From Actinophytocola xanthii (lineage in GTDB: Bacteria > Actinomycetota > Actinomycetes > Mycobacteriales > Pseudonocardiaceae), in contig NZ_MSIE01000020.1 in the NCBI RefSeq assembly GCF_001921205.1, forward strand, positions 1 through 37,958: 37,958 nt of DNA, read 5' to 3'. The position numbers were made by a program, and so were the translations under genes. Position 1 is the first letter of the stretch. Each line of letters starts with the position of its first letter. Shown piece after piece: positions 2,156 through 26,146 of this stretch. The notes beneath the pieces were generated by a model. That model had not been told where the DNA came from. It worked only from the letters and a program-made list of their open reading frames with translations, and did no database searches.

Positions 2156-3188
2156 GATGCATCGCACTTTCGAATCTGAGGCAGTTGATGATGGAGTTCT
2201 CGACGGTGTCGCGTAGCGCGTGGTCCGTGTAGTAGGCGGTGTGCGGGCTGACGAGGACGTTCGGCAGCCCGTGCAGGCGCAGCAACAGTTCGTTCTCGAC
2301 CTGTTCACCCCTGAGGTCGGCGTAGAAGATTCCTTCCTCCCCCTCGAGGACATCCAGCGCCGCCCCGCCCAACCTGCCGCTCTCCAGCGCGGCGACCAGG
2401 GCCTCGGTGTCGACGAGGGAGCCACGTGCGGTGTTGACGACGAACGCGCCGCGCTTCAGCTGCTCGATGCGTCGGCGGTTCAGGAGGTGGCGCGTGTCCC
2501 CGGCGAGTGGCGTGTGGAGCGTCACGATGTCGCTCTGCATCAACAGGTCGTCCAGGGGGACGTAGTCGGCGGAGGTCTGCGGGTTGATGTCGTAGGCAAG
2601 GATCTGGCAGCCGAAGGCACGCAGCCGGTCGATGACCGCGGCGCCGATGCGCCCTGTTCCGACCACGCCGACGGTCAGGTCACGCAGCTCCCTCCCCCGC
2701 ACCTCACCGAGTCGGTAGTCGTGCACCTCGACCCGGCGGATGAGGGACTTGGCGTGCCGTACCGCCATCAGCATCAGCATCAACGTGTAGTCGGCCACGC
2801 TGTCCGGCGAGTAGGCGACGTTCTCGACGGAGATGCCGACGCTCTCGGCGTACCGCACGTCCAGGTGGTTGTAGCCGATGCTGCGCGTGGAGACGTACCG
2901 CACGCCGGCACGGCTCAGCGCGAGCAGGGTCGGGTTCGTGACCCGGGTCTTGTGTCCGATGCTGATGCACCGGTTGCCGACAGCCAGTTCCGCGTTGGCT
3001 TCGGACACCGCGACCTCGGTGATCGTCGGCACCACACCGATACGAGCCGCCAGCTCGCGGAACAGGGCGGCCTCGTCCTGCCCGCATCCGTAGATCGTGA
3101 TGCCCGTTGCCGGGCGGTCCGAGAACGACACGGTCGCCGGCGAGCGGATGGGGCGGGCCGCCGTTCGTGCTGGCTCCCTGTAGGTCAT
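2148..3188 (-). CDS. vanH: D-lactate dehydrogenase VanH
   Basis: A 346-residue D-2-hydroxyacid dehydrogenase that reduces pyruvate to D-lactate for the adjacent ligase. The nucleotide-binding motif VGTGRIG lies at residues 176-182, with Asp200 at the end of the following strand (YDINP), as in NAD-preferring members. Catalytic residues include Arg255 (NTARG), Glu in LDVLEGEE and His316 in SPHTAYYT. STRSIGYNHLD and NVAYSPDSVADYT are VanH-type signatures. The start at 3188 gives about 28 residues ahead of the family core (GITIYGC); a GTG at 3131 is an alternative, but neither has a strong ribosome-binding site. First gene of the H-A-X operon. No regulatory genes flank it on the right, and the left side runs out of the window. 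Confidence 0.96.
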   Translation of the reverse strand: MTYREPARTAARPIRSPATVSFSDRPATGITIYGCGQDEAALFRELAARIGVVPTITEVAVSEANAELAVGNRCISIGHKTRVTNPTLLALSRAGVRYVSTRSIGYNHLDVRYAESVGISVENVAYSPDSVADYTLMLMLMAVRHAKSLIRRVEVHDYRLGEVRGRELRDLTVGVVGTGRIGAAVIDRLRAFGCQILAYDINPQTSADYVPLDDLLMQSDIVTLHTPLAGDTRHLLNRRRIEQLKRGAFVVNTARGSLVDTEALVAALESGRLGGAALDVLEGEEGIFYADLRGEQVENELLLRLHGLPNVLVSPHTAYYTDHALRDTVENSIINCLRFESAMHHG

Positions 3189-6645: not shown

Positions 6646-8331
6646 ATGCGCGACGACACGACCCGGTATCTGTGCGCCGCCGCCCACGAGGACTCGACGT
6701 TCGCCAACCAGGCGATCCGTGAGTTCCTCGTCGAGGACACCCGACCGGTGCCACCTGCTCCGGGCGTGGACGCGCCCGCCGTCCTCGGCGAGGCGATCGC
6801 CGCCCGAACCCGGCGAAAGCTGCGCGACAGCGCGCTGCTCGCGCTGTTCCTGGCTTTCGCCGTGCTCGCGCCGCTCGATCTGCTGCTCTACTGGGTCGTC
6901 CTGGCCGTCCTGTTCAGCATCGGCGCCATCACCCGGGCCAGGAAGGACGCCGAGCTTCGCACCGAGATCTCCAACGGCGGTCCGGCGGTACTCGCGACGA
7001 TCGTGATCAGCGCGGTGTTCCTGTACCTGCTGTACGACTACCTCGCCTCCTCGCCCGGTGGGGCCGGCGTCCCGCCGGGGTACTACCCGTACCCGGTCGA
7101 GCCGGACTCGGCCCTCCCGGTGGCGCTCGGCACCAGCGCGCTCGTCGCCGCGATGCTCGTCGTCCTCCTGTGGGACCGGCTCGTGGTGTGGCGGCACCTG
7201 CGGGACCGGTTCTGGCCCAACCACCTCGGCGGCGCGGTACCACCGCTGCCGGACCGAAGCGTCTTCCGCCTGAGCCCGGAACGCTTCACGAACCAGTTGT
7301 GGCGCCACCACAACAACGCGCCCACGATGGCCCCGCCCACCGGGAACGGTTCAGCGGGGGTGCCGATGACGGTCTACCGCGGCTTCGAGCCGTTCGTCGG
7401 CGCGGGCCTGCGCCACGAGCCCTGGTCGATTGCCGTGCCGCTGGAACGGATCCCCGACGTGGAGCCGACGATCTCGCTCGGGACCGACACGCTCTACGCG
7501 GCGATCCAGCGCGAGGTCGGCTCGCTGCGCGAGGCCAGCACGCTCGCGCCCGGCCGGCGACTTCGCGCCCTGGCGCTGGTCGAGCAGGTCGTCGTGGCCG
7601 CGGACGAGCTCGTCGACCACCTCCACGAGCCGGAGTCCTCGCTCTTTCTCGCCCACCCCGGCGCCGCGCCCTACACCGCGCTGAGCGCGGCGCGGGTCGG
7701 GTCGTTGCGGATGGAGCCGCTGGAGTGGGCCAGGTACTACCACTGCTACCAGGTCGAGACCTGGGACCGGGACCTGGTCGTCTCGGTCTTCGTGCACGTC
7801 GCCGTGGGCGCCGGGGCGTTGTACGTGGAATGGACGCCGTGCCTGCTGCTGCCGATCAGGAAGCGGTACCAGGACATCGACCGCCGGTCCCGCTCCCCGC
7901 TGCGTGCCGTCGGCCAGGCCGTGCTCGACGTACTGCGGCTGCCGGCCACCGTTCCCGAACGCCTCGTGCACCTGCTGACGTTCATCCGGCCCCTTCCGCA
8001 CGCGCCGGGCGCGGTCAACCCCGACAGGTACGGGACGGCGAAGAGCCTGCGGGAGCTGGCAGCCGACCGGAACGTGCACAACTACTTCCAGCTGGCCGAC
8101 GTCGACCGGTACCTGAAGACGATGGAGAGCCGGCTCATCCTGGCGGTGGGCCGCACGATGCGCGAGGCCGGCTACTCCCCGGCCTCCTTCGAGGAGCAGG
8201 CCGCCACGGTGGTGAACAACAACGTCCAGATCGCCGGGTCGGTGGGGGGTTCGGTGGTCGCCGGAACCGGCAACCGGATCCGGACCACCCCAGCTCCCCG
8301 CGCGACCGAACAGGCGGGAAAGGCTCGATGA
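6646..8331 (+). CDS. Multi-spanning membrane protein with C-terminal GSVVAG motif
   Basis: 561 residues, not a family I can name. Hydrophobic segments lie at about 62-95, 112-134 and 153-180, with a further one near 380-405. The rest is a large soluble region with conserved-looking aromatic and charged patches but no recognised catalytic motif. The C-terminus departs from this: residues 524-545 read NNNVQIAGSVGGSVVAGTGN and on, a low-charge Asn/Gly/Val motif followed by a disordered tail. Almost the same motif begins the next protein. AGGGAG at 6629-6634 serves either GTG 6643 or ATG 6646; I used the ATG. Its stop overlaps the next ATG by 4 nt. I infer the two products act together, possibly by motif-motif templating. 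Confidence 0.75.
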   Translation: MRDDTTRYLCAAAHEDSTFANQAIREFLVEDTRPVPPAPGVDAPAVLGEAIAARTRRKLRDSALLALFLAFAVLAPLDLLLYWVVLAVLFSIGAITRARKDAELRTEISNGGPAVLATIVISAVFLYLLYDYLASSPGGAGVPPGYYPYPVEPDSALPVALGTSALVAAMLVVLLWDRLVVWRHLRDRFWPNHLGGAVPPLPDRSVFRLSPERFTNQLWRHHNNAPTMAPPTGNGSAGVPMTVYRGFEPFVGAGLRHEPWSIAVPLERIPDVEPTISLGTDTLYAAIQREVGSLREASTLAPGRRLRALALVEQVVVAADELVDHLHEPESSLFLAHPGAAPYTALSAARVGSLRMEPLEWARYYHCYQVETWDRDLVVSVFVHVAVGAGALYVEWTPCLLLPIRKRYQDIDRRSRSPLRAVGQAVLDVLRLPATVPERLVHLLTFIRPLPHAPGAVNPDRYGTAKSLRELAADRNVHNYFQLADVDRYLKTMESRLILAVGRTMREAGYSPASFEEQAATVVNNNVQIAGSVGGSVVAGTGNRIRTTPAPRATEQAGKAR

Positions 8332-9052: not shown

Positions 9053-9826
9053 ATGCCGCTGCTGCGGGACCTGCTCACCGCCGTCGCCGAGAACCGGGTG
9101 GAGATCGTCGACCTGACCGCGCCGCTGTCCCCGCGCACGCCGATCCTGCGGCTGCCGGAACCGTTCGCCAACACGATCCCGTTCTCCCTCGAGCAGATCA
9201 GCCGGTACGACGAGGCCGGGCCCGGCTGGTACTGGAACAACATCCACACCGGAGAGCACACCGGGACCCACGTCGACGCCCCGGTGCACTGGGTGTCCGG
9301 AAAGGACGGTGCGGACGTCTCCCGGCTGGAGCTGCGCCAGCTCGTCGCGCCCGCGGCCGTCCTCGACGTGTCGGAGCGCGCCGCGGCGGACCCCGACCTC
9401 CTGGTGGAGATCGACGACGTCCGCGCCTGGGAGTCAGCCAACGGGCCGATGCCGGCCGGCGGCTGGCTGCTGCTGCGTACCGGCTGGGACGAGCGGTCCG
9501 AGGACGCCGAGCGGTTCCTCAACGCGGACGAGAACGGGCCGCACTCACCCGGGATCTCCGCGGAGTGCGCGCGGTGGCTGGCCGAGGAGACGCCGGTCGT
9601 CGGGCTCGGGGTGGAGACCGTCGGCACCGATGCCGGCGCGGCGCACGGCTTCGAGCCGGCGTTCCCCTGCCACCACTACTTCCTCGGCGCGGGGAAGCTG
9701 GGCCTGACCCAGCTGCGGAACCTGGCCCGGTTGCCGGCCACCGGCGCGGTGCTGGTCGTCTCCCCGCTGCCGATCGTCGGCGGCTCCGGCAGCCCCGCCC
9801 GCGTCTACGCCCTGGTCGAACGGTGA
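9053..9826 (+). CDS. Cyclase-family metal-dependent hydrolase (KynB-like fold)
   Basis: 257 residues of the family that includes kynurenine formamidase KynB and isatin hydrolase. The defining metal motif HxGTHxDxPxH is complete at residues 69-79 (HTGTHVDAPVH). VGLGVETVGTDAG and a C-terminal GSGSPARVYALV strand follow the family pattern. GAGGAG at 9040-9045 supports the start. Its stop overlaps the GTG of the ThDP enzyme in GTGA, so both are translationally coupled and likely act in one pathway. Substrates in this family are N-formyl aromatics, cyclic imides or lactams. None can be assigned here, and no tryptophan-degradation genes are nearby. Confidence 0.87.
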   Translation: MPLLRDLLTAVAENRVEIVDLTAPLSPRTPILRLPEPFANTIPFSLEQISRYDEAGPGWYWNNIHTGEHTGTHVDAPVHWVSGKDGADVSRLELRQLVAPAAVLDVSERAAADPDLLVEIDDVRAWESANGPMPAGGWLLLRTGWDERSEDAERFLNADENGPHSPGISAECARWLAEETPVVGLGVETVGTDAGAAHGFEPAFPCHHYFLGAGKLGLTQLRNLARLPATGAVLVVSPLPIVGGSGSPARVYALVER

Positions 9827-11448
9827 GCGTTGGCGAGCTCATCGGGAAGACGTTGGCCGGCCTCGGGGTGGGGCACGCGTTCGGTCTGGTCGGTAGCGGC
9901 AACTTCGTGGTGACGAACGCCCTGCGAGCGGCCGGGGTGCCGTTCGTCGCCACGCGGCACGAGTGCGGTGCCGCGGTCATGGCCGACGCCTACGCCAGGA
10001 CCAGTGGACAGCCGGCGGTCCTCACCCTCCACCAGGGCTGTGGGCTGACCAACGCCATGACCGGCATCACCGAGGCGGCCAAGAGCCGAACACCGCTGCT
10101 CGTGCTGGCCGCCGACACCCCCGGCGCGGCGGTCACCTCGAACTTCCGGATCGACCAGGACGCGCTCGTCGCCGCCGTCGGTGCGGTGCCCGAGCGGGTG
10201 CACTCCCCGGCCACCGCCCCGACCGATGTCGAACGCGCCTACCGCACGGCGGTGCACCAGCGCCGCACGGTGGTGCTGAACCTGCCGCTGGACGTGCAGG
10301 CCGCGCCGGCCCCTGAGCAGCCGTCCCGGCCGCCGGTCCCCGCTCCCCTGCCCGCCCGCCCCCACCCGGAGGCCGTGACCGCGCTCGCCGCGGCCCTCCG
10401 GGCGGCGCGACGACCGGTGTTCGTCGCCGGACGGGGCGCGCGGCACGCCGCCGCCGAGCTGCGCGAGCTGGCCGAGGCCAGCGGCGCGCTGCTCGCGACC
10501 TCGGCCGTGGCGAACGGCCTGTTCACCGGGGACCCGTGGTCGCTCGGCATCTCCGGCGGGTTCGCCACCCCGCTGGCCGCCGAGCTGGTCGCCGCCGCCG
10601 ACCTGGTCGTCGCCTGGGGGTGCTCGCTGACCCACTGGACCACCCGGCACGGCAGGCTGGTCGCCGACGACGCGGTGGTGGCGCAGGTCGACCTCGAGGT
10701 GTCCGCGCTCGGCGCCCGGCAGCGGGTCGACCTCGGCGTGGTCGGGGACGTGCGGCTGACCGCGCGCGACGTGCTGGCCGAGCTGGGGTCCACCGCGGGC
10801 ACGGGCTACCGGACCGAGGAGGTGCGGGCCCGGATCGCCGAGCGGGGCCGCTGGCGGGACGTCCCGTTCACCGACGCGTCGACCGCCGACCGGATCGACC
10901 CGCGCACGCTCAGCGTCCGGCTGGACGACCTGCTGCCGGCCGAGCGGGTGCTCGCCGTGGACTCCGGCAACTTCATGGGCTACCCGAGCGCCTACCTCCA
11001 GGTTCCCGACGCCAGCGGGTTCTGCTTCACCCAGTCGTTCCAGTCCGTCGGGCTGGGCTTGGCGACCGCCGCCGGCGCCGCCCTGGCGCGGCCGGACCGA
11101 CTGCCGGTGGCCGCGCTCGGCGACGGCGGCGCGATGATGGGCGTCGCCGAGCTGGACACCGTCGCGCGGCTGCGGCTGCCGATGGTGGCCGTGGTCTACG
11201 ACGACGACGCCTACGGCGCGGAGGTGCACCACTTCGCCGGGCAGGACCTGGGCGCAGTGCGCTACCCGGACACCGACGTGGCCGCGGTCGCCACGGGCTT
11301 CGGCTGGGTGGCGCACACCGTGCGCACGGTGTCCGACCTCGACGTGGTCACCGCCTGGCTCGCCGGCCCCCGGGACCGGCCGCTGTTGCTCGACGCGAAG
11401 ATCACCGACGACGGCGGGTCCTGGTGGCTGGCGGAAGCGTTCCGGTAA
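9823..11448 (+). CDS. Thiamine-diphosphate-dependent enzyme (acetolactate synthase superfamily)
   Basis: 541 residues with the three-domain layout of ThDP decarboxylases and carboligases. The PYR domain has the activating Glu47 in [18 protein letters not shown] central Rossmann-like domain covers about 180-330. The PP domain has the ThDP/Mg motif beginning at Gly433 ([14 protein letters not shown]), running to VVYDDDAYG. The GTG start overlaps the upstream stop by 4 nt, and the frame has no better start. There is no FAD-specific or regulatory-subunit partner gene, so a catabolic enzyme is likelier than branched-chain acetolactate synthase. With the cyclase-like hydrolase it may cleave a 2-oxo or diketo intermediate. 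That pathway is inference. Confidence 0.88.
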
Positions 11449-11509
11449 TGACGTTCCGCTGACGGGACAACGCCTTCCGCTCACCCCGGGGGTCATCCAC
11501 CATCGAGAC

Positions 11510-12271
11510 ATGACACCGGACGAGGTGAGGACCCAGGCGACCGGGCCGACGGCCGGTCTCGCGCCGGGCTACGCCCAGGCGAACCTGATCGCCGTGCCCG
11601 AGGACTGGGCCCTGGACGTGCTGCTGTTCGCCCAGCGCAACCCCAGGCCGTGCCCGGTCCTGGACGTGACCGACACCGGCAGCCCGCGAACCGTGCTCGC
11701 GCCGGGAGCCGACCTGCGCACGGCGATCCCCCGCTACCGCGTCTGGCGCGACGGCGAGCTGGTGGACGAACCGACCGACGTGACGCGGTACTGGCGCGAG
11801 GACCTGGTGGCGTTCCTCATCGGCTGCAGCTTCACCTTCGAGACGGCGCTGGCGCGGGCCGGGGTGCCGCTGCGGCACGTCGAGCAGGGCCGCAACGTGT
11901 CGATGTACCGGACCGACCGACAGTGCCGTCCCGCCCGTCGCCTGCACGGCCCGCTGGTCGTGTCGATGCGGCTGGTCCCGGCCGAGCTGGTCGCCCCGGC
12001 CACGGCGATCAGCGCCAGGATGCCGGCAGTGCACGGCGCACCGGTCCACGTGGGAGACCCGAGCGCACTCGGCGTCGCCGATCTGGCCCGTCCGGACTTC
12101 GGCGACCCCGTCGAGGGCGAGCCAGGCGACGTCCCCATGTTCTGGGCCTGCGGCGTGACACCGCAGGCCGCGCTGGTGGCCTCCCGACCGCCGTTCGCAA
12201 TCACCCACGCCCCCGGGTACATGCTGGTCACCGACGTTCCGGACAGCGAGTACGAACTCGCCGGCGGCTGA
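11510..12271 (+). CDS. DUF1445 putative hydro-lyase (D-glutamate cyclase-like)
   Basis: 253 residues of the DUF1445/YcsI family. The signature [22 protein letters not shown] lies near the N-terminus, with [13 protein letters not shown] in the middle and [11 protein letters not shown] and [15 protein letters not shown] near the C-terminus. A domain of this family in the mammalian protein DGLUCY has D-glutamate cyclase activity, and bacterial members are annotated as putative hydro-lyases. I see no strong ribosome-binding site before the ATG at 11510; the nearest purine run lies about 18 nt away. It follows the ThDP enzyme by 61 nt and could be its third operon member. Substrate unknown. Confidence 0.85.
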
Positions 12272-12283
12272 GAACCGCCACGC

Positions 12284-13471
12284 TCAGGGCGAGGCGACCT
12301 TTTCCGGCTCGGGCACCGGGGGCGGCGGCGCCTGCGGCACGATCGCCACGTTCACGGTGCGGGACAGGCGTTCGTGCGGACCGGGGTCGCCGCCGACGAG
12401 CACCGCGAGGGGTGTCCAGATCCCGACGACGAACAGCGACAGCAGTATCCCGGCCGGGATCAGCAGCTGGTGGGGTGCGTCGAAGAAGTCCCACCGGTCG
12501 ACCGACAGGGCCAGCCAGGCCAGCCACATCGGCGAGAGCAGCACCCCGTTGCGCACCACGATGGACAGCGGTCCGGCGCGCCGGCCGTCGGTCCGCGCCA
12601 GGCGCAGCAACATCGCCCGCTTTCCCGGTGTCGACCCGGTCAGCGCGGGCACCAGCAGGAACCACACGGCGGCCAGGATGACGACGATCGTCCCCTGACC
12701 GACGACCGTCCCGCCGAACAGCACGATCAGGCCGAGCACGATCCCGACCACCGCGACGAAGCCGACCAGGTCGGCGAGCAGCGCGAACAGCCGGCGGCTG
12801 GTGGTGACCCTGGTCGCGTAGCGGCGGCGGTCACGCTCGGGCTCGAGCGACGGCAGCAGCCGGGCGAGCGGACCGGCGACCAGCCAGCCGAGCGCGGCGC
12901 CGACCGTGTTCAGCATCAGGTCGTCCACGCTGAACAGCCGGTAGGCGCACGGGTAGACGAACCACAGACCGGTCAGCTGGGTCAGCTCGAACAGCAGCGA
13001 CGTGGCCGCGCCGACCGCGACCGCGGACAGCAGGCGCATCCCGACCAGGTAGCGCAGGAAGAAACCGAGCGGTGCCAGCAGGACGACGTTCAGCGCGGTG
13101 CTCCACAAGGCACCGTTGCCCACCATCGCCCGCAGGCTCCAGTCGCCCCCGGCCCGCTCCTCGAGCACCTGGAGGAAGTAGAACGGGCGCAGCTGCGGGG
13201 TGCTGGCGTAGGTCTGCTCGGCGCAGTAGCCCGCCGGGTCGCTCGGCAGCGGGATGACCGTCTGCATGGCCGCGGCCAGCAGGTAGAACAGGAAGCAGTA
13301 GAAGACCAGTGTCGTCCACCCGCCTGCCCGGCCACGGCTGCGATAGCTGTGCACGGCGACCGGCAGCATCACGACCAGGGCTATCAGGGGGAAGACCAAC
13401 AGGGCCGTCTTGACCGGCAGCAGGAAGGTGGCGACCACGGGGAGTTTGTACCCCACCGCGCCCGATCCCAA
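12284..13471 (-). CDS. VanZ-domain/RDD-domain fusion membrane protein
   Basis: 395 residues. The first half is a VanZ-like domain: hydrophobic helices at about 15-37 and 52-75, LNVVLLAPLGFFLRY, then FELTQLTG and YRLFSVDDLMLNTVGAALGWL, the acidic signature of the family. The second half matches an RDD domain (RRLFALLADLVGF, then GSTPGKRAMLLRLARTDGRRAGPLSIVVRN) with three further helices and a proline-rich cytoplasmic tail. VanZ proteins raise teicoplanin resistance and related domains are linked to cell-envelope lipids. RDD domains are found in some ion-transport proteins. It ends 12 nt from the convergent DUF1445 gene and starts 81 nt from a divergent creatininase-family gene. A direct role with the vanHAX genes 9 kb away is only possible, not shown. 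Confidence 0.85.
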   Translation of the reverse strand: MGSGAVGYKLPVVATFLLPVKTALLVFPLIALVVMLPVAVHSYRSRGRAGGWTTLVFYCFLFYLLAAAMQTVIPLPSDPAGYCAEQTYASTPQLRPFYFLQVLEERAGGDWSLRAMVGNGALWSTALNVVLLAPLGFFLRYLVGMRLLSAVAVGAATSLLFELTQLTGLWFVYPCAYRLFSVDDLMLNTVGAALGWLVAGPLARLLPSLEPERDRRRYATRVTTSRRLFALLADLVGFVAVVGIVLGLIVLFGGTVVGQGTIVVILAAVWFLLVPALTGSTPGKRAMLLRLARTDGRRAGPLSIVVRNGVLLSPMWLAWLALSVDRWDFFDAPHQLLIPAGILLSLFVVGIWTPLAVLVGGDPGPHERLSRTVNVAIVPQAPPPPVPEPEKVASP

Positions 13472-13552: not shown

Positions 13553-14275
13553 ATGACCGGGTACGGCGACTACCTGCTGCCCATGTCCACCGCGGCGCAG
13601 GAGCGGGAACGGGGGGCGGAGGTGGCGCTGCTGCCGGTGGGCAGCTTCGAGCAGCACGGCGCATTCCTCCCGCTGGCGACGGACACGGTGATCGCGGTGA
13701 CCGTGGCCAGGGCGATCGGCGAGGCGTACCCGGTCTTCCAGCTTCCGCCCATCACCATCTCCTGCTCGCACGAGCACGCCGCCTGGCGGGGCACGGTCAG
13801 CATCTCGGCGTCCACCCTGTACGCGGTGGTCACCGACGTCACGGAGTCGCTGCGCGCGAGCGGCGTCGAGCGGCTCGTGCTGGTCAGCGGCCACGGCGGC
13901 AACTACGTGCTGGGCAACGTCGTGCAGGAGGCCGGCGTCCGCGGCCGGTCCATGGCGCTGTTCCCCAGCGAGAACGACTGGGCGGCGGCGCGCGTCGCCG
14001 GCGGGGTGGAGCTGACCGCGGTCAGCGACATGCACGCCGGCGAGCTCGAGACCTCGATCCTGCTGCACGCCCACCCCGCGCTCGTCGGCGCGGACTACGC
14101 CGAGCACGACCACCTCGCCGACGACCGCGAGCGGTTCCTCACCCTCGGTCTCGGCGCCTACACCGAGTCCGGGGTGGTCGGCCGCCCCTCGTTGGCCTCG
14201 GCCGAGAAGGGCCGTGGCGCGCTCGCGAGCCTGGTCACCTCGTTCGGCGGCGTGCTGGCGGCGTTGGACAGGTGA
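13553..14275 (+). CDS. Creatininase-family amidohydrolase, candidate FAPy deformylase
   Basis: 240 residues of the creatininase superfamily. Metal-site residues visible are Glu33 and His35 (GSFEQHG), Asp44 (LATDT), His114 (SGHGGN) and the Glu residues of HAGELETS (161-168). The family includes creatininase, mycofactocin peptidase MftE and archaeal ArfB, which removes the formyl group from the pyrimidine FAPy. No mycofactocin genes are present. The neighbouring cyclohydrolase paralogue carries the residue expected to release FAPy, so deformylation is my preferred role, by inference. GGAGGAGAGAGGGG before 13553 decides the start. The last 118 nt overlap the convergent cyclohydrolase gene tail to tail. 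Confidence 0.87.
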   Translation: MTGYGDYLLPMSTAAQERERGAEVALLPVGSFEQHGAFLPLATDTVIAVTVARAIGEAYPVFQLPPITISCSHEHAAWRGTVSISASTLYAVVTDVTESLRASGVERLVLVSGHGGNYVLGNVVQEAGVRGRSMALFPSENDWAAARVAGGVELTAVSDMHAGELETSILLHAHPALVGADYAEHDHLADDRERFLTLGLGAYTESGVVGRPSLASAEKGRGALASLVTSFGGVLAALDR

Positions 14276-14886
14276 GGAAGGTGGTGGCCCAGCCGCTCGC
14301 GCTTGGTGCTCAGGTAGCCGAGGTTGTCCGGCGACGGCTCGATCAGCAGCGGTACCCGCTCGGTGATCCGGATGCCGTTCGCCCGCAGCGACTCCACCTT
14401 CTGCGGGTTGTTGGAGAGTAATCGGATCGAGCCGACGCCGAGGTCGTCGAGGATGTCCGCGGCGATGTCGAAGTTGCGCGCGTCGATGGGCAGGCCGAGC
14501 GCAACGTTGGCCTCGACGGTGTCCAGCCCGTCCTCCTGCAGCCGCATCGCCTGCAGCTTGGCGACCAGGCCGATCCCGCGGCCCTCGTGTCCCGTGAGGT
14601 AGATCACCATGCCGGCGCCCTCGGTGACGATGCAGTGCAGCGCCGTGGCGAGCTGCTCCCCGCACTCGCAGCGGGTCGAGGCGAACACGTCACCGGTGAG
14701 GCACTCGGAATGCACGCGGGTCAACGGGCTGTCGACCGCGGTCAGGTCGCCGTGTACCAGCGCCATGTGCTCGTCGCCCTGCGCGTCGACGTACCCGATC
14801 GCGCGGAACTCCCCGTACCGCGTCGGCAGGCGGGTCTCACCGACCCGTTCCGTCCCCTGCCGCTCGATGTCTGCCAGCTCAGTCAT
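14158..14886 (-). CDS. ribA: GTP cyclohydrolase II paralogue with Tyr-to-Met switch (FAPy-forming type)
   Basis: 242 residues with the GCH II zinc site Cys62, Cys73, Cys75 (ECLTGD, TRCEC) and the GTP-binding GHEGRGIGL (99-107). Aligned by eye, E. coli RibA Tyr105 (KIRAYALQ) becomes Met114 here (KLQAMRLQ). In S. coelicolor SCO6655 the same substitution gives release of the formylated pyrimidine FAPy instead of the deformylated riboflavin precursor. There is no fused DHBP synthase and no riboflavin gene nearby, so a role outside riboflavin synthesis is likely. The start overlaps the flippase stop by 4 nt. Leu156 is a TTA codon. The C-terminal tail of about 35 residues beyond the usual family end is encoded antisense to the creatininase-like gene. 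Confidence 0.93.
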   Translation of the reverse strand: MTELADIERQGTERVGETRLPTRYGEFRAIGYVDAQGDEHMALVHGDLTAVDSPLTRVHSECLTGDVFASTRCECGEQLATALHCIVTEGAGMVIYLTGHEGRGIGLVAKLQAMRLQEDGLDTVEANVALGLPIDARNFDIAADILDDLGVGSIRLLSNNPQKVESLRANGIRITERVPLLIEPSPDNLGYLSTKRERLGHHLPHLSNAASTPPNEVTRLASAPRPFSAEANEGRPTTPDSV

Positions 14887-15893
14887 GCCACCCTCTCCCG
14901 TCGGCGGACCAGCATCAGCGCGCCCGGCAGGCTCGCCACCAGCCCCAAGAGACCGTATGTCACCGCGGCGGTGAGCCCCTGCGCGGCACCGAGGCCGGCC
15001 GCGGCGAACATGAGCGCGGTCACACCCTCCCGGGGTCCCCAACCCCCGACGTTGATCGGCAGGCCCATCGCGAGCAGCGCCACGACGACGATCGGCAGCA
15101 GCTGCTCCGGCGACTGGGTCGCGCCCGCGGCCCGCATCGCGATCAGGAACAGCGTCACGTGTCCGGCCAGCGCGAGCGCCGAGAGCAGCGCGACGCCCGG
15201 CCACGCGTTCCGGGCCAGCAGCCCCGCGCGGATGTCGTCCAGGCCGCGGCGCCAGCGCGACCGCGCCCCGGTGAGGCGGCGGGCGGCGAGGTAGGCCAGC
15301 ACGACCACCGCGGCGACGGCCAGCACGATCAGGCCCACCTGGCGGGCGGGGGACGCCAGCAGCACCGCGACGCCGGCCACGATCAGGACGGCCTGCCCGG
15401 CCACCCGTTCGAGGACGACCGCGCGCACCCCGGCGCCGAGGTCGCCCTCCTCCCTGCCGTGGCGGACGGCGCGCTGGACGTCGCCGAGGACACCGGCCGG
15501 CAGGACCGCGTTGAGGAACAGCGCGCGGTAGTAGTCGGTGACCGCCCGGCGCAGCGGCAGGTGCAGGCCGAGCCGGCGGGCCACCAGGCTCCAGCGCCAG
15601 GCGCAGAGCACCGTCGTGGCGAGCCCGATGGCGAGGGCGGCCAGCACCTCGACGAGGGAGATCACCCGAAGGCCCTCGGCGAACCCGCTGGCACCGACCT
15701 TCCACATGACGGCGACGACGATGCCCACGCCGACCAGCAGCTTGCCCCAGGCCCAGAGGGTCTTGCGGCTCACCGTCCGGCGGGCCCGGACCGGCTCCGG
15801 CAGGGGCTCGGGCAAGGGCTCGGGCACCGCCACCGGGGCGGGGAACCGGTCGAGGGGGCGCTCCAGGATCGTGGGGTCCAGGGTGGTGGTCAC
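14883..15893 (-). CDS. UPF0104/LPG_synthase_TM family membrane protein, possible lipid flippase
   Basis: 336 residues. The N-terminal 40 residues are cytoplasmic and proline-rich, with a PLPEPLPEP repeat. About eight hydrophobic helices follow from residue 47. Family signatures are DYYRALFLNAVLPAGVLGDVQRA (around 124-146), VLERVAGQAVL and MGLPINVGGWGPREGV. Members include the flippase half of MprF and many glycosylation-cluster proteins thought to move lipid-linked intermediates. It overlaps the glycosyltransferase gene (4 nt) and the cyclohydrolase gene (4 nt), so it belongs to the same operon. Placement beside a GT4 enzyme suggests a membrane-associated glycosylated product. The substrate is unknown. 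Confidence 0.88.
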   Translation of the reverse strand: MTTTLDPTILERPLDRFPAPVAVPEPLPEPLPEPVRARRTVSRKTLWAWGKLLVGVGIVVAVMWKVGASGFAEGLRVISLVEVLAALAIGLATTVLCAWRWSLVARRLGLHLPLRRAVTDYYRALFLNAVLPAGVLGDVQRAVRHGREEGDLGAGVRAVVLERVAGQAVLIVAGVAVLLASPARQVGLIVLAVAAVVVLAYLAARRLTGARSRWRRGLDDIRAGLLARNAWPGVALLSALALAGHVTLFLIAMRAAGATQSPEQLLPIVVVALLAMGLPINVGGWGPREGVTALMFAAAGLGAAQGLTAAVTYGLLGLVASLPGALMLVRRRERVA

Positions 15894-16981
15894 CAGGCCT
15901 CACCCCGCAGGCGCTCGAGCACGGCGGAGAGCCGGGCCGCGGCCGTCTCCCAGCCGTCGAGCTCGCGCTTGTCGGCGGCCGCGCGCAGGCGGTCCCGCAG
16001 CCAGGGCTCGGTGAGCCAGCGGCGTAACGCCTCGGCCAGGGCGTGCGGGTCCTCGGGTGGTACGAGGATGCCGGGCACCTCGCCGCCGGGACTGTGCCCG
16101 AGCGTCTCCGGCAGCGCGTCGACCGCCGTGGTCAGCACGGGGACGGCCCGGGCCAGCGCCTCGGTGACGACCATGCCGAAGGTCTCCCGGCGCGAGGGCA
16201 GCACGACCAGGTCGGCGCGGTCGAACAGCTCCGCGAGCCGTGCGTCCGGCAGCGGCGCCATCGGGCCGGTGAGCCGCACCCGGTCGGCGAGGCCGTGGTC
16301 GGCGACCAGCCGACGCACCCGGTCCACGTACTCCGGGTCGCGGTCCACCGAGCCGACCAGGTCGCAGGTGAAGGGCAGGTCCGCTACCTCGGCGAGCGCC
16401 TCGACCAGGAGGTCCTGGCCCTTGCGCGGGGTCACCGAGGCCGGGCAGAGCAGCCGGGTGCCGTCACCGCCGCGCGCCCGCGGGGCGGGGTCGGTGCCGG
16501 GCTCGACCACGTGGACCCGGTCGGCCTCGAGGCGGTGCAGCCCGATCAGCCGGCGCTGGGCCCAGGGGCTCGTCGCGATGACGGCGAACGCCTCGCGCAG
16601 CGTCTCCCGCTCCAGGCCGTCGAGGTGGGCGGCGCGGTCGAGCGGCAGGCCGGTCTCGTCGCCCAGCGGGAGGTGCAGCAGCACCGCCAGCCGCAGCCGC
16701 CGCGCGTGCGGCACCACCACGGCCGGCACACCGCAGGCGACCAGGCCGTCCACCAGCACGACGGCCCCGTCCGGCACCGCGCCGAGCGCGTGGTCCAGGG
16801 CCACCCGGGAGGCGGTGTCCGGCGTCGGCCACTCCCCGGAGACCGGCACCGCCCGCAGCCCGAGGAGCTCGCACATCCGCTGGTCGTAGATGCTGCCCCC
16901 GCTGGCGAAGGACACCTCGCCGGCGTCCGCGGGCAGGATGAGGTCGACGACCGGGCCGGAGCCGGTCGGGGTCGCGGTCAC
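15890..16981 (-). CDS. GT4-family (GT-B fold) glycosyltransferase
   Basis: 363 residues. The C-terminal half shows the GT4 nucleotide-sugar-binding pattern: [18 protein letters not shown] (179-196), then [31 protein letters not shown] and [20 protein letters not shown] with its E-x7-E element (266-274). The N-terminal acceptor domain includes [12 protein letters not shown] and [22 protein letters not shown]. There is no signal peptide or helix, so it is cytoplasmic. It overlaps its neighbours by 4 nt on both sides. Leu319 is a TTA codon. The acceptor is unknown; from context it could be the pteridine or pyrimidine product of the operon, or a lipid carrier. Confidence 0.9.
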
Positions 16982-17376
16982 AGGGCCCGCCGGTAGCTCG
17001 CCCAGGCCACGTGTGACTCGCGCAGGGTGACCTCGATGTCGGCCAGGTCGCGGGCGCCCTCGCCCAGGCGGCCGGCCCGCACCCGCTCGGCGAGGCGGTC
17101 CGCGACCACCTTCGCCAGGAACTCCGTCGAGGTGTTGACCCCCGCGAACTCGGGCACCTCGTCGAGGTTGCGGTAGTTGAGCTCGCCGAGGATCTCGGCG
17201 AGCTGCGTGCTTGCGAGTCCGATGTCGACCACGAGGTTGTCCGGGTCGAGCTCGGCCCGGTGGAAGGTGGCATCGACGACGAAGGTGGCGCCGTGCAACC
17301 GTTGTGCGGGGCCGAACACCTCGCCGTTGAAACTGTGCGCGACCATCATGTGGTCCCGGACGGTGAGGCTGAACAC
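16978..17376 (-). CDS. PTPS/QueD-family protein lacking canonical catalytic residues
   Basis: 132 residues of the 6-pyruvoyl-tetrahydropterin synthase/6-carboxytetrahydropterin synthase fold ([58 protein letters not shown]). Aligned by eye with E. coli QueD (CGRLHGH), the catalytic Cys is Ala24 and the third zinc His is Ala30, leaving His14 and His28. The QueD Asp-His pair (LDHHYLN) is replaced by Asn67-Tyr68. The pterin-anchoring Glu is kept as Glu120 (LRESHVAW). The pocket may therefore bind a pterin-like ring but perform different chemistry. It starts 21 nt after the dehydrogenase stop and overlaps the glycosyltransferase gene by 4 nt. Confidence 0.9.
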
Positions 17377-17397
17377 CCGCGCCTCCGTGCTGTCGTG

Positions 17398-18369
17398 TCA
17401 GTAGCTGTCGTACCTAACACGGACACAGAGCGCGGACAGTTCAATCTTGTTCAGCCTCGACAACACCGAGGGCAGTTCGGTGAATTCGCACTCCCCGCTG
17501 ACCAGGGCGTCGAAACCCTCGTCGGCCAGGAGATCCATGGCGACGGCGAGCCGCTCGGCGTAGCCCCGACGCCCGCGCTGGGCCGGTGAGACCATGCCCA
17601 CCTGGCTGCCGCGCACGGTCAGCCGCCGGGAGTGGAACCACTCCCCCAGCGGCACGCTGACCCGCCGGTCGCCGTACCAGCTCAGCTCCACCACCACGCC
17701 CTCCGGCGCGAGCAGCTCCAGCGCCCGGACGAGCCCCGCCTCCGAGGCGCTCGCGTGCACGACGAGGTCGCAGCCGCCGCGCGCGGCCTCCGGGGTGGCG
17801 AACTCGACGCCGAGCGCCTCGGCGAGCGCGGCACGTGCCGGGTCGATGTCCACCAGCTGCACGCGGGCGGCCGGGACGCCGGCGAGCACCTTCGCCACGG
17901 AGGCACCGACCATCCCGGCGCCGATCACCGCGATCCGGTCGCCGACCAGCGGCCGGGCGTCCCAGGCGGCGTTGACCGCGGTCTCCACCGTGCCGGCGAG
18001 AACCGCCCGCGACGCCGGCACCGCGTCCGGTACGACCGTGACTGAGCTCGCCGGCACGACGTAGCGGGTCTGGTGCGGGTAGAGGCAGAAGACGGTGCGG
18101 CCGCGCAGCTCGTCCGGGCCGTCCTCGACCACGCCGACGTTGAGGTAGCCGTACTTGACCGGGGCGGGGAAGTCGCCCTCCTGGAACGGCGCCCGCATGA
18201 CCTCGTGCTGGCTCGCCGGCACCTCGCCGCGGAACACCAGCGTCTCGGTGCCGCGGCTGACCGCGGAGTACAGGGTCCGCACGAGCACCTCGTCCGGCCC
18301 GCGCTCGGGCAGGACCACGGGCCTGATCTCGCCCCGCCCGGGGGCGTCCAGCCAGAACGCGTGATCCAC
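17398..18369 (-). CDS. Medium-chain (MDR) dehydrogenase without obvious zinc ligands
   Basis: 323 residues of the MDR superfamily. The N-terminal GroES-like part has LYSAVSRGTETLVFRGEVP. The Rossmann part has VIGAGMVGASVAKVLAG (GxGxxG, about 148-164), followed by LVDIDPARAALAEALG with an Asp that suggests NAD(H). The usual zinc-enzyme GHE motif is replaced by KYGYLNVGVVE, and no Cys sits at the usual catalytic position, so it may be a zinc-independent reductase. It is the first gene of the five-gene operon. Reduction of a sugar or a pteridine side chain is possible. Substrate unknown. Confidence 0.88.
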   Translation of the reverse strand: MDHAFWLDAPGRGEIRPVVLPERGPDEVLVRTLYSAVSRGTETLVFRGEVPASQHEVMRAPFQEGDFPAPVKYGYLNVGVVEDGPDELRGRTVFCLYPHQTRYVVPASSVTVVPDAVPASRAVLAGTVETAVNAAWDARPLVGDRIAVIGAGMVGASVAKVLAGVPAARVQLVDIDPARAALAEALGVEFATPEAARGGCDLVVHASASEAGLVRALELLAPEGVVVELSWYGDRRVSVPLGEWFHSRRLTVRGSQVGMVSPAQRGRRGYAERLAVAMDLLADEGFDALVSGECEFTELPSVLSRLNKIELSALCVRVRYDSY

Positions 18370-18432: not shown

Positions 18433-20594
<2,162 letters not shown>

Positions 20595-20624
20595 CTCCAC
20601 CACAACTGAACACGCTCTCCGGCT

Positions 20625-20654
20625 GTGCGTCGTCGAAGCGATTCGACGACGCAC
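20625..20654. promoter_or_regulatory. Main operator palindrome upstream of the sugar-transport operon
   Basis: A perfect inverted repeat with 13-bp arms (GTGCGTCGTCGAA and its complement) around GCGA, 26 nt before the binding-protein ATG. The central 22 nt match the site before the LacI gene. The longer arms make it the likely high-affinity operator. It could alternatively form an RNA hairpin ending the LacI transcript, but the repeated core argues for protein binding. Confidence 0.78.
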
Positions 20655-20680
20655 CCACCCCACTGGTTGGAGGAACAAGG

Positions 20681-21964
20681 ATGTTCAAGCCAGGCAGGAT
20701 CGGCGTGGCGCTCGTCACGTCGGCCACGCTGTTGACGGCGTGCGGCTCCGAGGACGCGGGCGGCGACGACGAGCTCGTCCTGTGGCACTACGAGAGCCCG
20801 GACAGTGCGATGGGCATCGCCTGGAACGAGGCGATCGAGGAGTTCGAGCGGACCCACGAGGGCGTCACCGTGCGGTTCGAGGAGAAGGGCTTCGAGCAGA
20901 TCCAGAAGAACGCCCAGATGGTGCTCAACTCCGACGAGGCACCCGACATCATGGAGTACAACAAGGGCAACGCCACCGCGGGACTGCTGTCCAAGCAGGG
21001 GCTGCTCACCGACATGTCGGCCGAGGCGAGCGAGCGCGGCTGGGACGACATGCTCTCCCCCAGCCTCCAGACCACGTGCAAGTACGACGAGCGCGGGGTG
21101 ATGGGCGGCGAGAAGTGGGTCGGCGTGCCGAACTACGCCGAGTACGCGATGGTCTACTACAACAAGGACCTGTTCGCCCGGCACGGTGTCGCGGTACCAA
21201 CCACTTTGGACCAACTCACGTCCGCGATGGACACGTTCGTGGACAAGGGAGTCACCCCGCTCGCCGTCGGCGGCAAGGAGTACCCGGCCCAGCAGCTGTT
21301 CTACCAGCTCGTCCTGTCCAAGGCGGACAGCGGATGGATCAACGACTTCCACCGCTACACCGGTGACGTGGACTTCCACGACGAGGCGTGGACCTACGGC
21401 GCGGAGACCTTCGCCGACTGGGTGGACCGCGGCTACCTGAGCAAGGACGCGACCGGGATCGACGCCGAGGGGATGGGACTGTCCTTCATGGCCGGCGACT
21501 ACCCGATGATGATCTCGGGCAGCTGGTGGTACGGCCGACTCAAGAACGAGATCAAGGCCTTCGAGTGGGACTCGTTCCTGTTCCCCAGCGACTTCACCCT
21601 CGGCTCCAGCGGGAACCTCTGGGTGGTCCCGGAGAACTCGCCGAACAAGGAGCTGGCCTACGACTTCATCGACATCACGATGAAGAAGGCCAACCAGGAC
21701 CTGCTCGGCAACTCCGGCGGCGTCCCGGTCGCGGCCGACACCGAGGCGATCAGCGACGAGAAGAACCGGACGCTGATCGACAACTACCAGACCCTCGTCG
21801 AGCGGGACGGGCTCGCCTACTACCCCGACTGGCCGGTGCCCGGCTACTACGACGTGCTGGTGTCGGCGACCCAGAAGCTCATCAACGGGACCGCGTCGCC
21901 GGAGGAGGTCCTCGACGAGCTGGCCGCGCCGTACGAGGAGAACCTCGCGAACGTCGGCTCCTGA
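20681..21964 (+). CDS. Sugar ABC transporter substrate-binding lipoprotein (family 1)
   Basis: 427 residues. A lipoprotein signal ends in the lipobox LLTAC with Cys21 as the lipidated residue. The mature protein starts with an acidic linker and the family core LVLWHYESPDSAMGIAW. Typical CUT1 solute-binding features follow: APDIMEYNKGN, VPNYAEYAMVYYNKDLFARHG, and FMAGDYPMMISGSWW near the hinge. Aromatic residues are frequent, as in oligosaccharide binders. GGAGGA at 20669-20674 supports the ATG. First gene after the main operator, followed by two permease genes. I infer binding of xyloglucan oligosaccharides from the linked enzymes. Other beta-glucans cannot be excluded. Confidence 0.93.
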   Translation: MFKPGRIGVALVTSATLLTACGSEDAGGDDELVLWHYESPDSAMGIAWNEAIEEFERTHEGVTVRFEEKGFEQIQKNAQMVLNSDEAPDIMEYNKGNATAGLLSKQGLLTDMSAEASERGWDDMLSPSLQTTCKYDERGVMGGEKWVGVPNYAEYAMVYYNKDLFARHGVAVPTTLDQLTSAMDTFVDKGVTPLAVGGKEYPAQQLFYQLVLSKADSGWINDFHRYTGDVDFHDEAWTYGAETFADWVDRGYLSKDATGIDAEGMGLSFMAGDYPMMISGSWWYGRLKNEIKAFEWDSFLFPSDFTLGSSGNLWVVPENSPNKELAYDFIDITMKKANQDLLGNSGGVPVAADTEAISDEKNRTLIDNYQTLVERDGLAYYPDWPVPGYYDVLVSATQKLINGTASPEEVLDELAAPYEENLANVGS

Positions 21965-21973
21965 GGTCTTGTC

Positions 21974-22915
21974 ATGGCCCTGCTGACCACGGCGCCGCCC
22001 ACCGCGCCACCACCGGCCGCGACCCGACCGGCCCGCCGGCGCGGCGGCTACCTGCTCTACCTCGTGCCGGCCGCGGTGCTGTTCGTCGCGGTCATCGCGG
22101 TCCCGCTGGCGATGAACATCGGGCTCAGCTTCACCCGCTGGCAGGGTGTGGGGTCGCCGGACTGGGTGGGGTTCGAGCAGTACCGCAAGCTGTTCGCCGA
22201 CGAGACGCTCTGGGTCTCGTTCGGCAACAACCTGGCGCTGATCGTCGCCATGGCCGTGCTGCCGAGCATCCTCGGCCTGCTGCTGGCCTCGGCACTGTTC
22301 GACGTCGTGGCGAAGCGGTTCGGGCAGGGGACGACCAGCGCGCTGCGCGCGTCGTTCTACCTGCCGCAGGTGCTCCCCGCCGTCGTCGCGGGCGTGGTGT
22401 GGGGCTGGATCCTGCACCCGGAGTACGGCTCGGTCAACGCGTTGCTCCGGGCGGTGGGGCTGGACTCGTGGACCCAGAACTGGCTGGGCGACGAGCGGAC
22501 GGCGCTGCTGTCGGTGATGGCGGTGCTGGTCTGGATCCAGATCGGCTACCCGCTGGTTATCTTCATGGCCGGGCTCCAGCGGATCGACCCCGAGCTGTAC
22601 GAGGCGGCGGAGATCGACGGCGCCTCGTGGTGGCAGCGAACCTGGTCGATCACGATCCCGCAGCTCCGGCCGGAGATCTTCGTCGTGCTGCTGACCTGCA
22701 CGATCGCCGCGCTCAAGTCGTTCGACAAGATCTTCGTCCTGACCAGGGGCGGCCCGGGTGGTTCCACGAACACGCCGGCCTACTTCTCGTTCCAGAACTT
22801 CTTCGAGAAGGCCAACGTCGGCTACGGCGCCGCGATCGCCACCCTGCTGACCGTGCTCATCGTGGGCCTGGCGTTCCTGTTCCTCCGCGTCCAACGCGGC
22901 AAGGAGCAGCTGTGA
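21974..22915 (+). CDS. ABC transporter permease, MalF type
   Basis: 313 residues with about six transmembrane helices. A proline/alanine-rich cytoplasmic leader comes before the first helix (YLLYLVPAAVLFVAVIAVPLA). The EAA loop, which contacts the ATPase, begins at Glu210 (EAAEIDGASWWQRTWSITIP). FDKIFVLTRGGPGGSTNT near the C-terminus is a hallmark of the MalF/UgpA branch. It lies 9 nt after the binding-protein stop and overlaps the next permease start (GTGA). No ATP-binding gene lies in this operon. In many actinomycetes one MsiK-type ATPase encoded elsewhere serves several such transporters, and the same is likely here. Confidence 0.93.
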   Translation: MALLTTAPPTAPPPAATRPARRRGGYLLYLVPAAVLFVAVIAVPLAMNIGLSFTRWQGVGSPDWVGFEQYRKLFADETLWVSFGNNLALIVAMAVLPSILGLLLASALFDVVAKRFGQGTTSALRASFYLPQVLPAVVAGVVWGWILHPEYGSVNALLRAVGLDSWTQNWLGDERTALLSVMAVLVWIQIGYPLVIFMAGLQRIDPELYEAAEIDGASWWQRTWSITIPQLRPEIFVVLLTCTIAALKSFDKIFVLTRGGPGGSTNTPAYFSFQNFFEKANVGYGAAIATLLTVLIVGLAFLFLRVQRGKEQL

Positions 22916-23853
22916 GACACAATCCGTCCACCCACCGAACCGTCACCTCAGGGGAACGTGACGCAAACCAGCCACAAGTACGTGACCAGGCGGCACTCTC
23001 CCGACCGAAGCCCGCCAACAGGAAGAAATTCGGGGAGGCGGGACAGCGGCAGCTCGTGCTGGTCGTGCTCGTGGTTGCGGCGGTCGTCACGCTGTTCCCG
23101 TTCCTGCTGGTGGCCATGAACGCGGTGAAGTCGCCGGCCGAGTATGCGGCGCGGGGGCCGCTCGGCTTGCCCGACGGCCTGTACCTCGACGGAATAGCCA
23201 ACTTCTGGGAGCGGGTGGACTTCGGGCTCAAGCTCGCCAACAGCACGGTCATCGCCGGCTCGGTCGCCGTGCTGGCGGTCGCCGTCTCGGTGCTCACCGC
23301 CTACGCGCTCGGCATCGGGCGGATCAGGGGTCGCCTGTGGATCGTCGCGATCTTCCTCCTGGCGAACCTGATGCCGCAGGAGGCGCTGGTCTACCCGCTG
23401 TACTACCTCGCCAAGCAGGTCGGCCTCTACGACACCCAGCTCGCCGTGATCATCATCTTCACCGCCATCCAGAGCGCGTTCGGCACCTACCTGCTCACCT
23501 CGGTGCTGGCCACGTTCCCCCGCGAGATCATCGAGGCGGCGAAGATCGACGGCGCCAGCCGGTGGCAGGTCCTCTGGCGGGTGGTGGTGCCGATCAGCTG
23601 GCCGACGCTGTCGGTGCTGCTGGTCTTCTTCTTCATCTGGACGTGGAACGAGTTCTTCATCCCGATGATCATGCTGGTCTCCAACGACACCCAGACGGTC
23701 CCGGTCGCGCTCGGCGTGCTCCAGGGCCAACGACTCATGGACGCCACCGCGCAGAGCGCCTCGGCGCTGCTGGGCATCCTCCCGGCGGTGGTGTTCTTCC
23801 TGATCTTCCAACGGACACTGACCCGGGGCATCGCGGTGGGGGCGATCAAATGA
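22912..23853 (+). CDS. ABC transporter permease, MalG type
   Basis: 313 residues with six predicted helices after a polar leader of about 45 residues. The EAA loop starts at Glu208 (EAAKIDGASRWQVLWRVVVP), and the C-terminus ends FQRTLTRGIAVGAIK, the usual MalG-type ending. The GTG at 22912 overlaps the MalF-type stop and was chosen for this coupling. No other start nearby has a better ribosome-binding site, though the leader is longer than usual. Its stop overlaps the GH31 ATG by 4 nt, tying import directly to the intracellular enzyme. Confidence 0.92.
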   Translation: MRHNPSTHRTVTSGERDANQPQVRDQAALSRPKPANRKKFGEAGQRQLVLVVLVVAAVVTLFPFLLVAMNAVKSPAEYAARGPLGLPDGLYLDGIANFWERVDFGLKLANSTVIAGSVAVLAVAVSVLTAYALGIGRIRGRLWIVAIFLLANLMPQEALVYPLYYLAKQVGLYDTQLAVIIIFTAIQSAFGTYLLTSVLATFPREIIEAAKIDGASRWQVLWRVVVPISWPTLSVLLVFFFIWTWNEFFIPMIMLVSNDTQTVPVALGVLQGQRLMDATAQSASALLGILPAVVFFLIFQRTLTRGIAVGAIK

Positions 23854-26114: not shown

Positions 26115-26146
26115 CCCACCACCTCCGACAGCACCCGGGAGTGCTC

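Follow-up and report, generated by a model that had tools for sequence, protein, structure and literature searches.

The present study deals with a gene cluster at positions 13553 to 18369 of a stretch of Actinophytocola xanthii DNA (contig NZ_MSIE01000020.1, 37,958 nucleotides in full, hereafter the window), which an initial annotation had read as a candidate pathway from guanosine triphosphate (GTP) to a glycosylated pyrimidine or pteridine. The source genome comprises 8.3 Mb in 204 contigs. The six genes of the cluster are a co-inherited unit and form part of a larger conserved actinobacterial set of about ten proteins. Moreover, the correspondence between one residue of the cyclohydrolase and the presence of the creatininase-family gene gives strong circumstantial support to a predicted two-step opening of GTP via FAPy (2-amino-5-formylamino-6-ribosylamino-pyrimidinone 5′-phosphate). 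The genes are listed below together with the basis of each assignment.

17398..18369, minus strand: dehydrogenase of the medium-chain dehydrogenase/reductase (MDR) superfamily, BchC-like (profile matches below the cut-off and an SRGTE site)
16978..17376, minus strand: 6-pyruvoyltetrahydropterin synthase (PTPS)-like T-fold protein, SCO6650 orthologue (Pfam PTPS and a match to 3d7j)
15890..16981, minus strand: glycosyltransferase of family 4 (GT4) (family scan and a conserved E-x7-E)
14883..15893, minus strand: UPF0104 / LPG_synthase_TM (flippase-like) membrane protein (Pfam, E 4.2e-33)
14158..14886, minus strand: paralogue of GTP cyclohydrolase II (GCH II) with a switch Met, predicted to be FAPy-type (Pfam and alignment)
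13553..14275, plus strand: creatininase-family amidohydrolase of the HGGN type, predicted FAPy formamidase (Pfam and motif)

Strands and coordinates agree with the initial annotation, in which five minus-strand genes overlap or nearly abut and the creatininase-family gene converges on them. Three of the minus-strand junctions are overlaps of 4 bases and the MDR and PTPS-like genes are spaced by 21 bases, while the creatininase-family and GCH II genes overlap tail to tail by 118 bases. In most relatives a divergent gene for a cytidine diphosphate (CDP)-alcohol phosphatidyltransferase, here called the CDP enzyme, is located before the MDR gene, and a class I methyltransferase is usually encoded between the GT4 and UPF0104 genes. 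The window locus is without both genes, which adjoin each other on contig C153 of the same genome.

Co-occurrence across actinobacteria

For the analysis of gene content, PTPS-like relatives were collected in a scan of one genome per species, in which at least 528 were confirmed. The best 80 of these, a selection biased to close kin, were retained as named loci under 16 genus labels (15 named genera and one 'Actinomycetes' metagenome-assembled genome), and genes were called with a simple codon-usage script. The MDR protein was present at all 80 of these best loci, the CDP enzyme and GT4 at 79 each, the methyltransferase at 78, UPF0104 at 77, GCH II at 71, the creatininase-family protein at 67 and a RibD_C reductase at 24. 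The six families of the window occur at 67 to 80 of the 80 loci under 12 to 16 of the 16 labels, and the co-occurrence for which the initial annotation had called for a search was in this way found. Among the 40 largest protein clusters of the 80 loci, in which the LtaS-like proteins described below were grouped with the CDP enzymes and therefore tallied separately, no unrelated neighbour family exceeded 28 loci or 5 labels. A chance neighbourhood was rejected on the basis of this comparison with the at least 67 loci of the six families, and a phage origin was rejected on the basis of a viral-contig scan that contained no relative. Streptomyces and Micromonospora are among the at least 15 named genera with the cluster.

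As the fairer sample, 394 genomes were drawn evenly from the class; since counts and handles agree, the searches with the PTPS-like, methyltransferase and LtaS-like proteins were taken to cover one and the same set of genomes. PTPS-like proteins were found in 57 genomes (E 1e-20 or better), the methyltransferase in 49 (48 of them PTPS-positive) and the LtaS-like protein in 40 (38 of them PTPS-positive). The two genomes with the LtaS-like protein and without PTPS are G337, which has the methyltransferase and is fragmented into 430 contigs, and G509. In group f5 the LtaS-like protein was found in each of the 19 PTPS-positive genomes; in genome G193 it is encoded about 4 Mb away. The MDR, PTPS-like and GT4 proteins are the near-invariant core of the set and the only families in the fetched stretches (12 to 20 kb) of the divergent loci L039, L173 and L176.

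The cyclohydrolase switch residue and the creatininase-family gene

In the alignment to Escherichia coli RibA the window GCH II retains the zinc Cys triad and the catalytic Arg, and Tyr105 of RibA is aligned to the Met of KLQAMRLQ, so that the switch Met of the initial annotation was confirmed; the roles of the zinc cysteines, the catalytic Arg and the switch residue are those that we take them to have in GCH II. The protein is predicted to be of the FAPy type, stopping the opening of GTP at FAPy. The creatininase-family domain was recognized with 198.7 bits by Pfam Creatininase (cut-off 31.3). Its metal residues had been described as intact, which holds for the retained E.HG...D motif but not for the His-x-Glu motif (HYEN), which reads HGGN in the window protein, so that one of the presumed metal ligands differs. 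Across the loci both E.HG...D and HGGN were present in 96/96 proteins and H.EN in 0/96.

The switch residue was tallied at 114 distinct loci, which were obtained from 138 PTPS loci (with the window counted in and the non-PTPS loci L127 and L128 left out) by subtraction of 21 loci without GCH II in the fetched stretch and of 3 duplicates, the latter recognized by identical GCH II sequence only. RibD_C was found at six of the 21 loci without GCH II, and the creatininase-family gene at two of them (L051 and L064). At every one of the 94 creatininase-bearing loci the switch residue is different from Tyr (Met 69, His 18, Leu 5, Gln 2), and at 18 of the 20 creatininase-free loci it is Tyr. The first of the two exceptions, the non-Tyr locus L160, has a creatininase-family gene of 62% identity about 13 kb from its PTPS gene; the second, L115, has an altered and probably decayed GCH domain, fused to RibD_C, in which the zinc pattern is broken and the catalytic Arg is changed to His. 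When the whole genomes of 10 of the 18 Tyr-type loci were searched for the creatininase-family protein (one of these genomes being only 68% complete), five were without a match and five had matches of only 35-40% identity; in two non-Tyr controls the identity was 62-63%. Canonical GCH II controls, comprising 29 loci, the RibBA of the window's own genome (L002) and E. coli RibA, have Tyr in 31/31 cases. A creatininase-family enzyme that finishes what the cyclohydrolase leaves undone is expected to be needed only where the switch Tyr has been lost, and the correspondence therefore lends strong circumstantial support to the formation of FAPy and its subsequent deformylation, as the initial annotation had proposed them.

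Several observations count against this two-step opening. The creatininase-family protein reached only 28.5 bits with the NCBIfam model of ArfB (cut-off 180); it may act like ArfB, yet it is not classed as ArfB by the curated model. Locus L051 has the creatininase-family gene and no GCH II in its stretch. In phylogenetic analysis the loss of the Tyr needs a single change in a tree of 91 rows, from which L115 and a further 53 of the 114 cluster rows were left out, and two when all 114 rows are included. The non-Tyr groups join in a clade with a support of 86, which is not starred, and an independent-pairs test of switch residue and creatininase-family gene had 2 pairs and no power. As there was essentially one evolutionary switch, the counts are not independent events, and their treatment as such was rejected. 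When the GCH II groups of the cluster were placed relative to canonical RibBA, a p-AU of 0.54 was obtained for one joint clade, by which such a clade is neither shown nor rejected. With Tyr loss and the creatininase-family gene on the same part of the tree and without an independent replicate, and with MftE as the best NCBIfam model (125.3 bits, below its cut-off of 172), the protein might instead cleave a different amide, as MftE does on a peptide, and be linked to the non-Tyr GCH II by shared ancestry only. This is considered unlikely, since the gene is strictly retained, within the sample, in two separate and well-supported GCH II groups, since the switch residue varies among Met, His, Leu and Gln and never returns to Tyr, and since BrbF is a bacterial member of the family that deformylates FAPy (PMC9478397).

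Putative ring-tailoring, sugar-transferring and membrane proteins

The PTPS-like protein is orthologous to SCO6650 (PDB 3d7j; E 6.7e-64) and was assigned to the superfamily by Pfam PTPS (80 bits, cut-off 22.4), while it scored 34.5 bits with the QueD model, below the cut-off of 89.25. The altered active site that had been noted within the PTPS fold was confirmed: HGH reads HGA, the Asp-His pair is lost and the pterin-anchoring Glu is retained, where the three zinc His, the Asp-His pair and the Glu are presumed to have their usual roles. Across 135 loci LHGAT was found in 131, L.E[SN] in 133, the first zinc His in 134 and HGH in none, and with HGH absent throughout while the first zinc His and the Glu are kept, the protein is hardly an ordinary PTPS. 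For the MDR protein 30.4 bits were obtained with ADH_zinc_N (cut-off 31.8) and 39.7 bits with the best NCBIfam model, bchC (cut-off 291). The site SxxSRGTE is present in 118 of 134 loci, and with SRGTE at what we take to be the usual position of the zinc Cys the enzyme is probably zinc-free. In the GT4 protein E255 and E263 (E-x7-E) are among the columns conserved to at least 95% in 134 loci, and this gene is the sole indication of a glycosylation step. GT4 and methyltransferase were found in one reading frame at L048:10525-12762 and at L177:10253-12157.

The RibD_C reductase (over 100 bits) is encoded at 18/18 Tyr-type loci and is fused to GCH II at four loci (L094, L115, L175 and L177), of which L175 and L177 are distant loci with a GCH II-RibD_C gene that is possibly separate. 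No RibD_C match was found within the window. The earlier statement that riboflavin genes are missing is therefore uncontradicted for the window but does not hold for some relatives, in which RibD_C is part of the cluster. A RibD-type deaminase was searched for among the called genes of the PTPS loci with one query (phmmer, E 1e-5) and was found at none of them, only its own source L128 being matched. As the loci yielded no such deaminase, the 2-amino group would be retained and the path would lead to a pterin-type rather than a flavin ring, and the early route resembles that of archaea minus deamination. At two Pseudonocardia loci a gene named histidine-phosphatase-like from its sequence alone is located between UPF0104 and the GCH II-RibD_C fusion (L094:13303-13866 and L115:13436-14062) and perhaps provides a phosphatase step.

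As GCH II, creatininase-family formamidase and RibD_C all belong to riboflavin-pathway families, and as the family member BrbF serves riboflavin in rhizobia (PMC9478397), the cluster could be regarded as an additional source of precursors for riboflavin or F420. A plain supply function of this kind was rejected as highly improbable: a Tyr-type RibBA (L002) is encoded elsewhere in the window's genome besides the cluster GCH II, and the RibD-type deaminase was not found at the PTPS loci, lumazine and riboflavin synthases not having been searched for. In addition, we know of no role of PTPS, GT4, methyltransferase or CDP proteins in flavin synthesis.

The UPF0104 protein scored 38.3 bits with the flippase-like model of NCBIfam (cut-off 43.2). 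Three CDP enzymes were recognized by Pfam with 47.7, 43.8 and 34.8 bits (cut-off 22), the motif DGxxARx8Gx3Dx3D is intact in 124 of 126 loci, and a low-confidence structural model had PgsA, AF2299 and PIP synthase among its high-ranking matches, interspersed with designed helical proteins. On contig C153 of the window's genome the CDP enzyme is fused, in one frame of 779 residues beside the methyltransferase gene, to an LtaS/EptA-like domain; this fusion occurs at 12 loci, the window's genome included. In total an LtaS-like protein was found in 33 fetched loci (including L127 and one duplicate genome, L139 being identical to L082), and the unfused proteins are encoded within 8 kb of a CDP gene. 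At the two Tyr-type loci L151 (16988-17770) and L155 (9319-10086) a different methyltransferase gene adjoins the CDP-LtaS fusion. The LtaS-like protein has an alkaline-phosphatase-superfamily domain behind membrane helices, with conserved ESYGR and GDHQP motifs. Its sequence match is weak (LtaP, E 0.0014); a structural model of the L096 protein (mean predicted local distance difference test score 71) matched LtaP with E 5.2e-8 and MCR-1 with E 3.9e-7 at modest TM-scores (0.35 / 0.47), and the fold ranking placed LtaP/LtaS first, followed by MCR-1/EptA. LtaS/LtaP and EptA/MCR enzymes transfer a headgroup from a phospholipid, and by its modelled fold the LtaS/EptA-like protein is a candidate headgroup transferase.

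With LtaP/LtaS as the best fold match and the CDP enzyme fused to the same protein, the LtaS-like enzyme might also be the polymerase of a teichoic-acid-like surface polymer with a ribityl-pyrimidine repeat. This is rated as quite unlikely, as the single-headgroup transferases EptA/MCR match nearly as well and the 40 largest clusters contain no additional family that is shared by many genera.

Other genes were also noted in the window. Directly beside the cluster a fusion of VanZ and RDD domains is encoded (12284-13456, minus strand), the VanZ-F model scoring far under its cut-off, and positions 513-3131 (minus strand) hold a vanHAX-like set of D-Ala-D-Ala dipeptidase (Peptidase_M15), D-Ala-D-X ligase and 2-hydroxyacid dehydrogenase, as is common in actinomycetes. 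Consecutive genes for a putative cyclase (PF04199), a thiamine diphosphate-dependent enzyme and a D-glutamate-cyclase-like protein are located at 9053-12271 (plus strand). At 19467-29125 (plus strand) a LacI regulator is followed by what appear from their translations to be sugar ABC importer genes and then by GH31 and GH3-CBM6 glycosidases.

Proposed pathway and comparison with known systems

The following pathway is proposed for the set of about ten proteins. A GCH II with a non-Tyr switch would open GTP only as far as FAPy, and the creatininase-family enzyme would strip the formyl group to give 2,5-diamino-6-ribosylamino-pyrimidinone 5′-phosphate; in Tyr-type lineages, in which the creatininase-family gene is absent, a single GCH II would carry out both steps. 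The ribosyl would be turned into a ribityl chain by RibD_C, which some lineages encode within the cluster, or elsewhere perhaps by the housekeeping RibD. Closure or tailoring of the ring may then fall to the MDR enzyme and the zinc-less PTPS-like protein, methylation to the methyltransferase and glycosylation to the GT4 enzyme. Finally, the CDP enzyme may attach a phosphatidyl group to the polyol or its phosphate, and with the UPF0104 protein aiding the crossing of the membrane, the LtaS/EptA-like enzyme may pass the phospho-headgroup to an acceptor outside. Known members of these enzyme families and the switch correspondence lend support to the first two steps; gene content and fusions point to the reduction, and gene content and one fusion to the steps after it. 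The initial annotation had ended with a glycosylated compound possibly moved across the membrane. With the methyltransferase, CDP, RibD_C and LtaS/EptA-like parts found in relatives, the likely ending has moved to attachment to a phospholipid and transfer to the outside, and the genes taken as a whole suggest a pterin- or pyrimidine-polyol that is glycosylated, methylated, set on a phospholipid and transferred in this manner. The probability of the whole pathway as proposed is estimated at roughly 45%. The further-reaching idea that actinobacteria divert an archaeal-style opening of GTP, with FAPy, its deformylation and ribityl reduction but without deamination, to a membrane lipid with such a headgroup, which is flipped and moved by the LtaS/EptA-like enzyme to the exterior of aerial or spore-forming cells, is put forward as a tentative possibility that is rather doubtful at present. 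We know of no product for a pathway of these approximately ten genes and of no precedent for a nucleobase-derived surface modification of this kind.

The later steps of the pathway have to be weighed against a number of unfavourable results. RibD_C (over 100 bits) was found at only 19 of the 94 creatininase-bearing loci; the L096 RibD_C protein reached 133.8 bits (E 4.7e-39) with its best model, archaeal ArfC (TIGR01508), below the cut-off of 186.45, and the only strong RibD_C match in the window's genome is fused to a deaminase (L128), two others being weaker. Foldseek gave no match for the model of the CDP enzyme at E 0.001 or better, and Pfam Sulfatase was reached by only one of three LtaS-like proteins scanned. 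In the even draw a methyltransferase match is missing in 9 and an LtaS-like match in 19 of the 57 PTPS genomes, and of the 16 in group f86 an LtaS-like match was obtained for only 2. The 19 genomes without an LtaS-like match, together with the joint occurrence of MDR, PTPS and GT4 even in the divergent loci, would fit a soluble pterin or pyrimidine glycoside, used as cofactor or light screen, with the CDP, UPF0104 and LtaS-like genes serving a separate envelope function and travelling along. Such a product is regarded as somewhat unlikely in view of the CDP enzyme at 79 and UPF0104 at 77 of the 80 named loci, the 12 CDP-LtaS fusions, the genome-wide association of the LtaS-like gene with PTPS (38/40) and locus L042, which retains CDP, methyltransferase and UPF0104 genes without a GT4 match.

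In searches of the open-access PubMed Central literature no paper on the cluster as a pathway was found; 'undescribed' applies to the pathway but not to its single parts, SCO6655, SCO6650 and BrbF being already known. SCO6655 of Streptomyces coelicolor is reportedly a FAPy-forming GCH II with Met120 at the switch, SCO6650 of the same species is said to be a zinc-less PTPS homologue (PDB 3d7j), and both are reported to have been published as single proteins. As the window PTPS-like protein is orthologous to SCO6650 and its GCH II resembles SCO6655, two parts of the cluster are not new. The Streptomyces gene order fits the numbering 6650-6655, and the window differs from this type of cluster in having the methyltransferase and CDP genes on another contig. 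SCO numbers other than SCO6650 (3d7j) and SCO6655 were obtained by counting, and we infer by this numbering that SCO6652 is the cluster methyltransferase. The cluster may be tied to development, as SCO6652 was raised in differentiated S. coelicolor mycelium, by 4.3 log2 units at 48 h and by 4.1 at 72 h (PMC3610822). SCO6655 is listed in a table of genes mostly raised in stationary phase (PMC2853524).

The archaeal enzymes ArfA, ArfB and ArfC follow the same logic, with opening of GTP to FAPy, a creatininase-family deformylase and a RibD_C reductase without an adjoining deaminase. The archaeal route uses GCH III, whereas in the cluster FAPy would come from a GCH II variant, no deaminase was found, and the curated cut-offs of ArfB and ArfC are not reached by the cluster proteins. 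LtaS/LtaP and EptA/MCR resemble the LtaS-like protein in fold and in their N-side helices; the cluster protein differs by its fusion or proximity to the CDP enzyme. In cyanobacterial biopterin glucosylation a PTPS-family protein and a GT4 glycosyltransferase reportedly act in one pathway starting from GCH I, a combination likewise seen here; that system is not known to have creatininase, RibD_C, CDP or LtaS parts. BrbF, the creatininase-family FAPy formamidase of the riboflavin route in rhizobia, shares family and predicted reaction with the cluster protein and serves riboflavin; its cyclohydrolase partner in rhizobia is not yet known (PMC9478397). If true, the proposed pathway would give a purpose to the odd activity of SCO6655 and to the zinc-less fold of SCO6650. 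What the findings support is a modified form of the early riboflavin route known from archaea, placed among genes not seen with it before; the lipid headgroup would, if it proved true, be categorically new.

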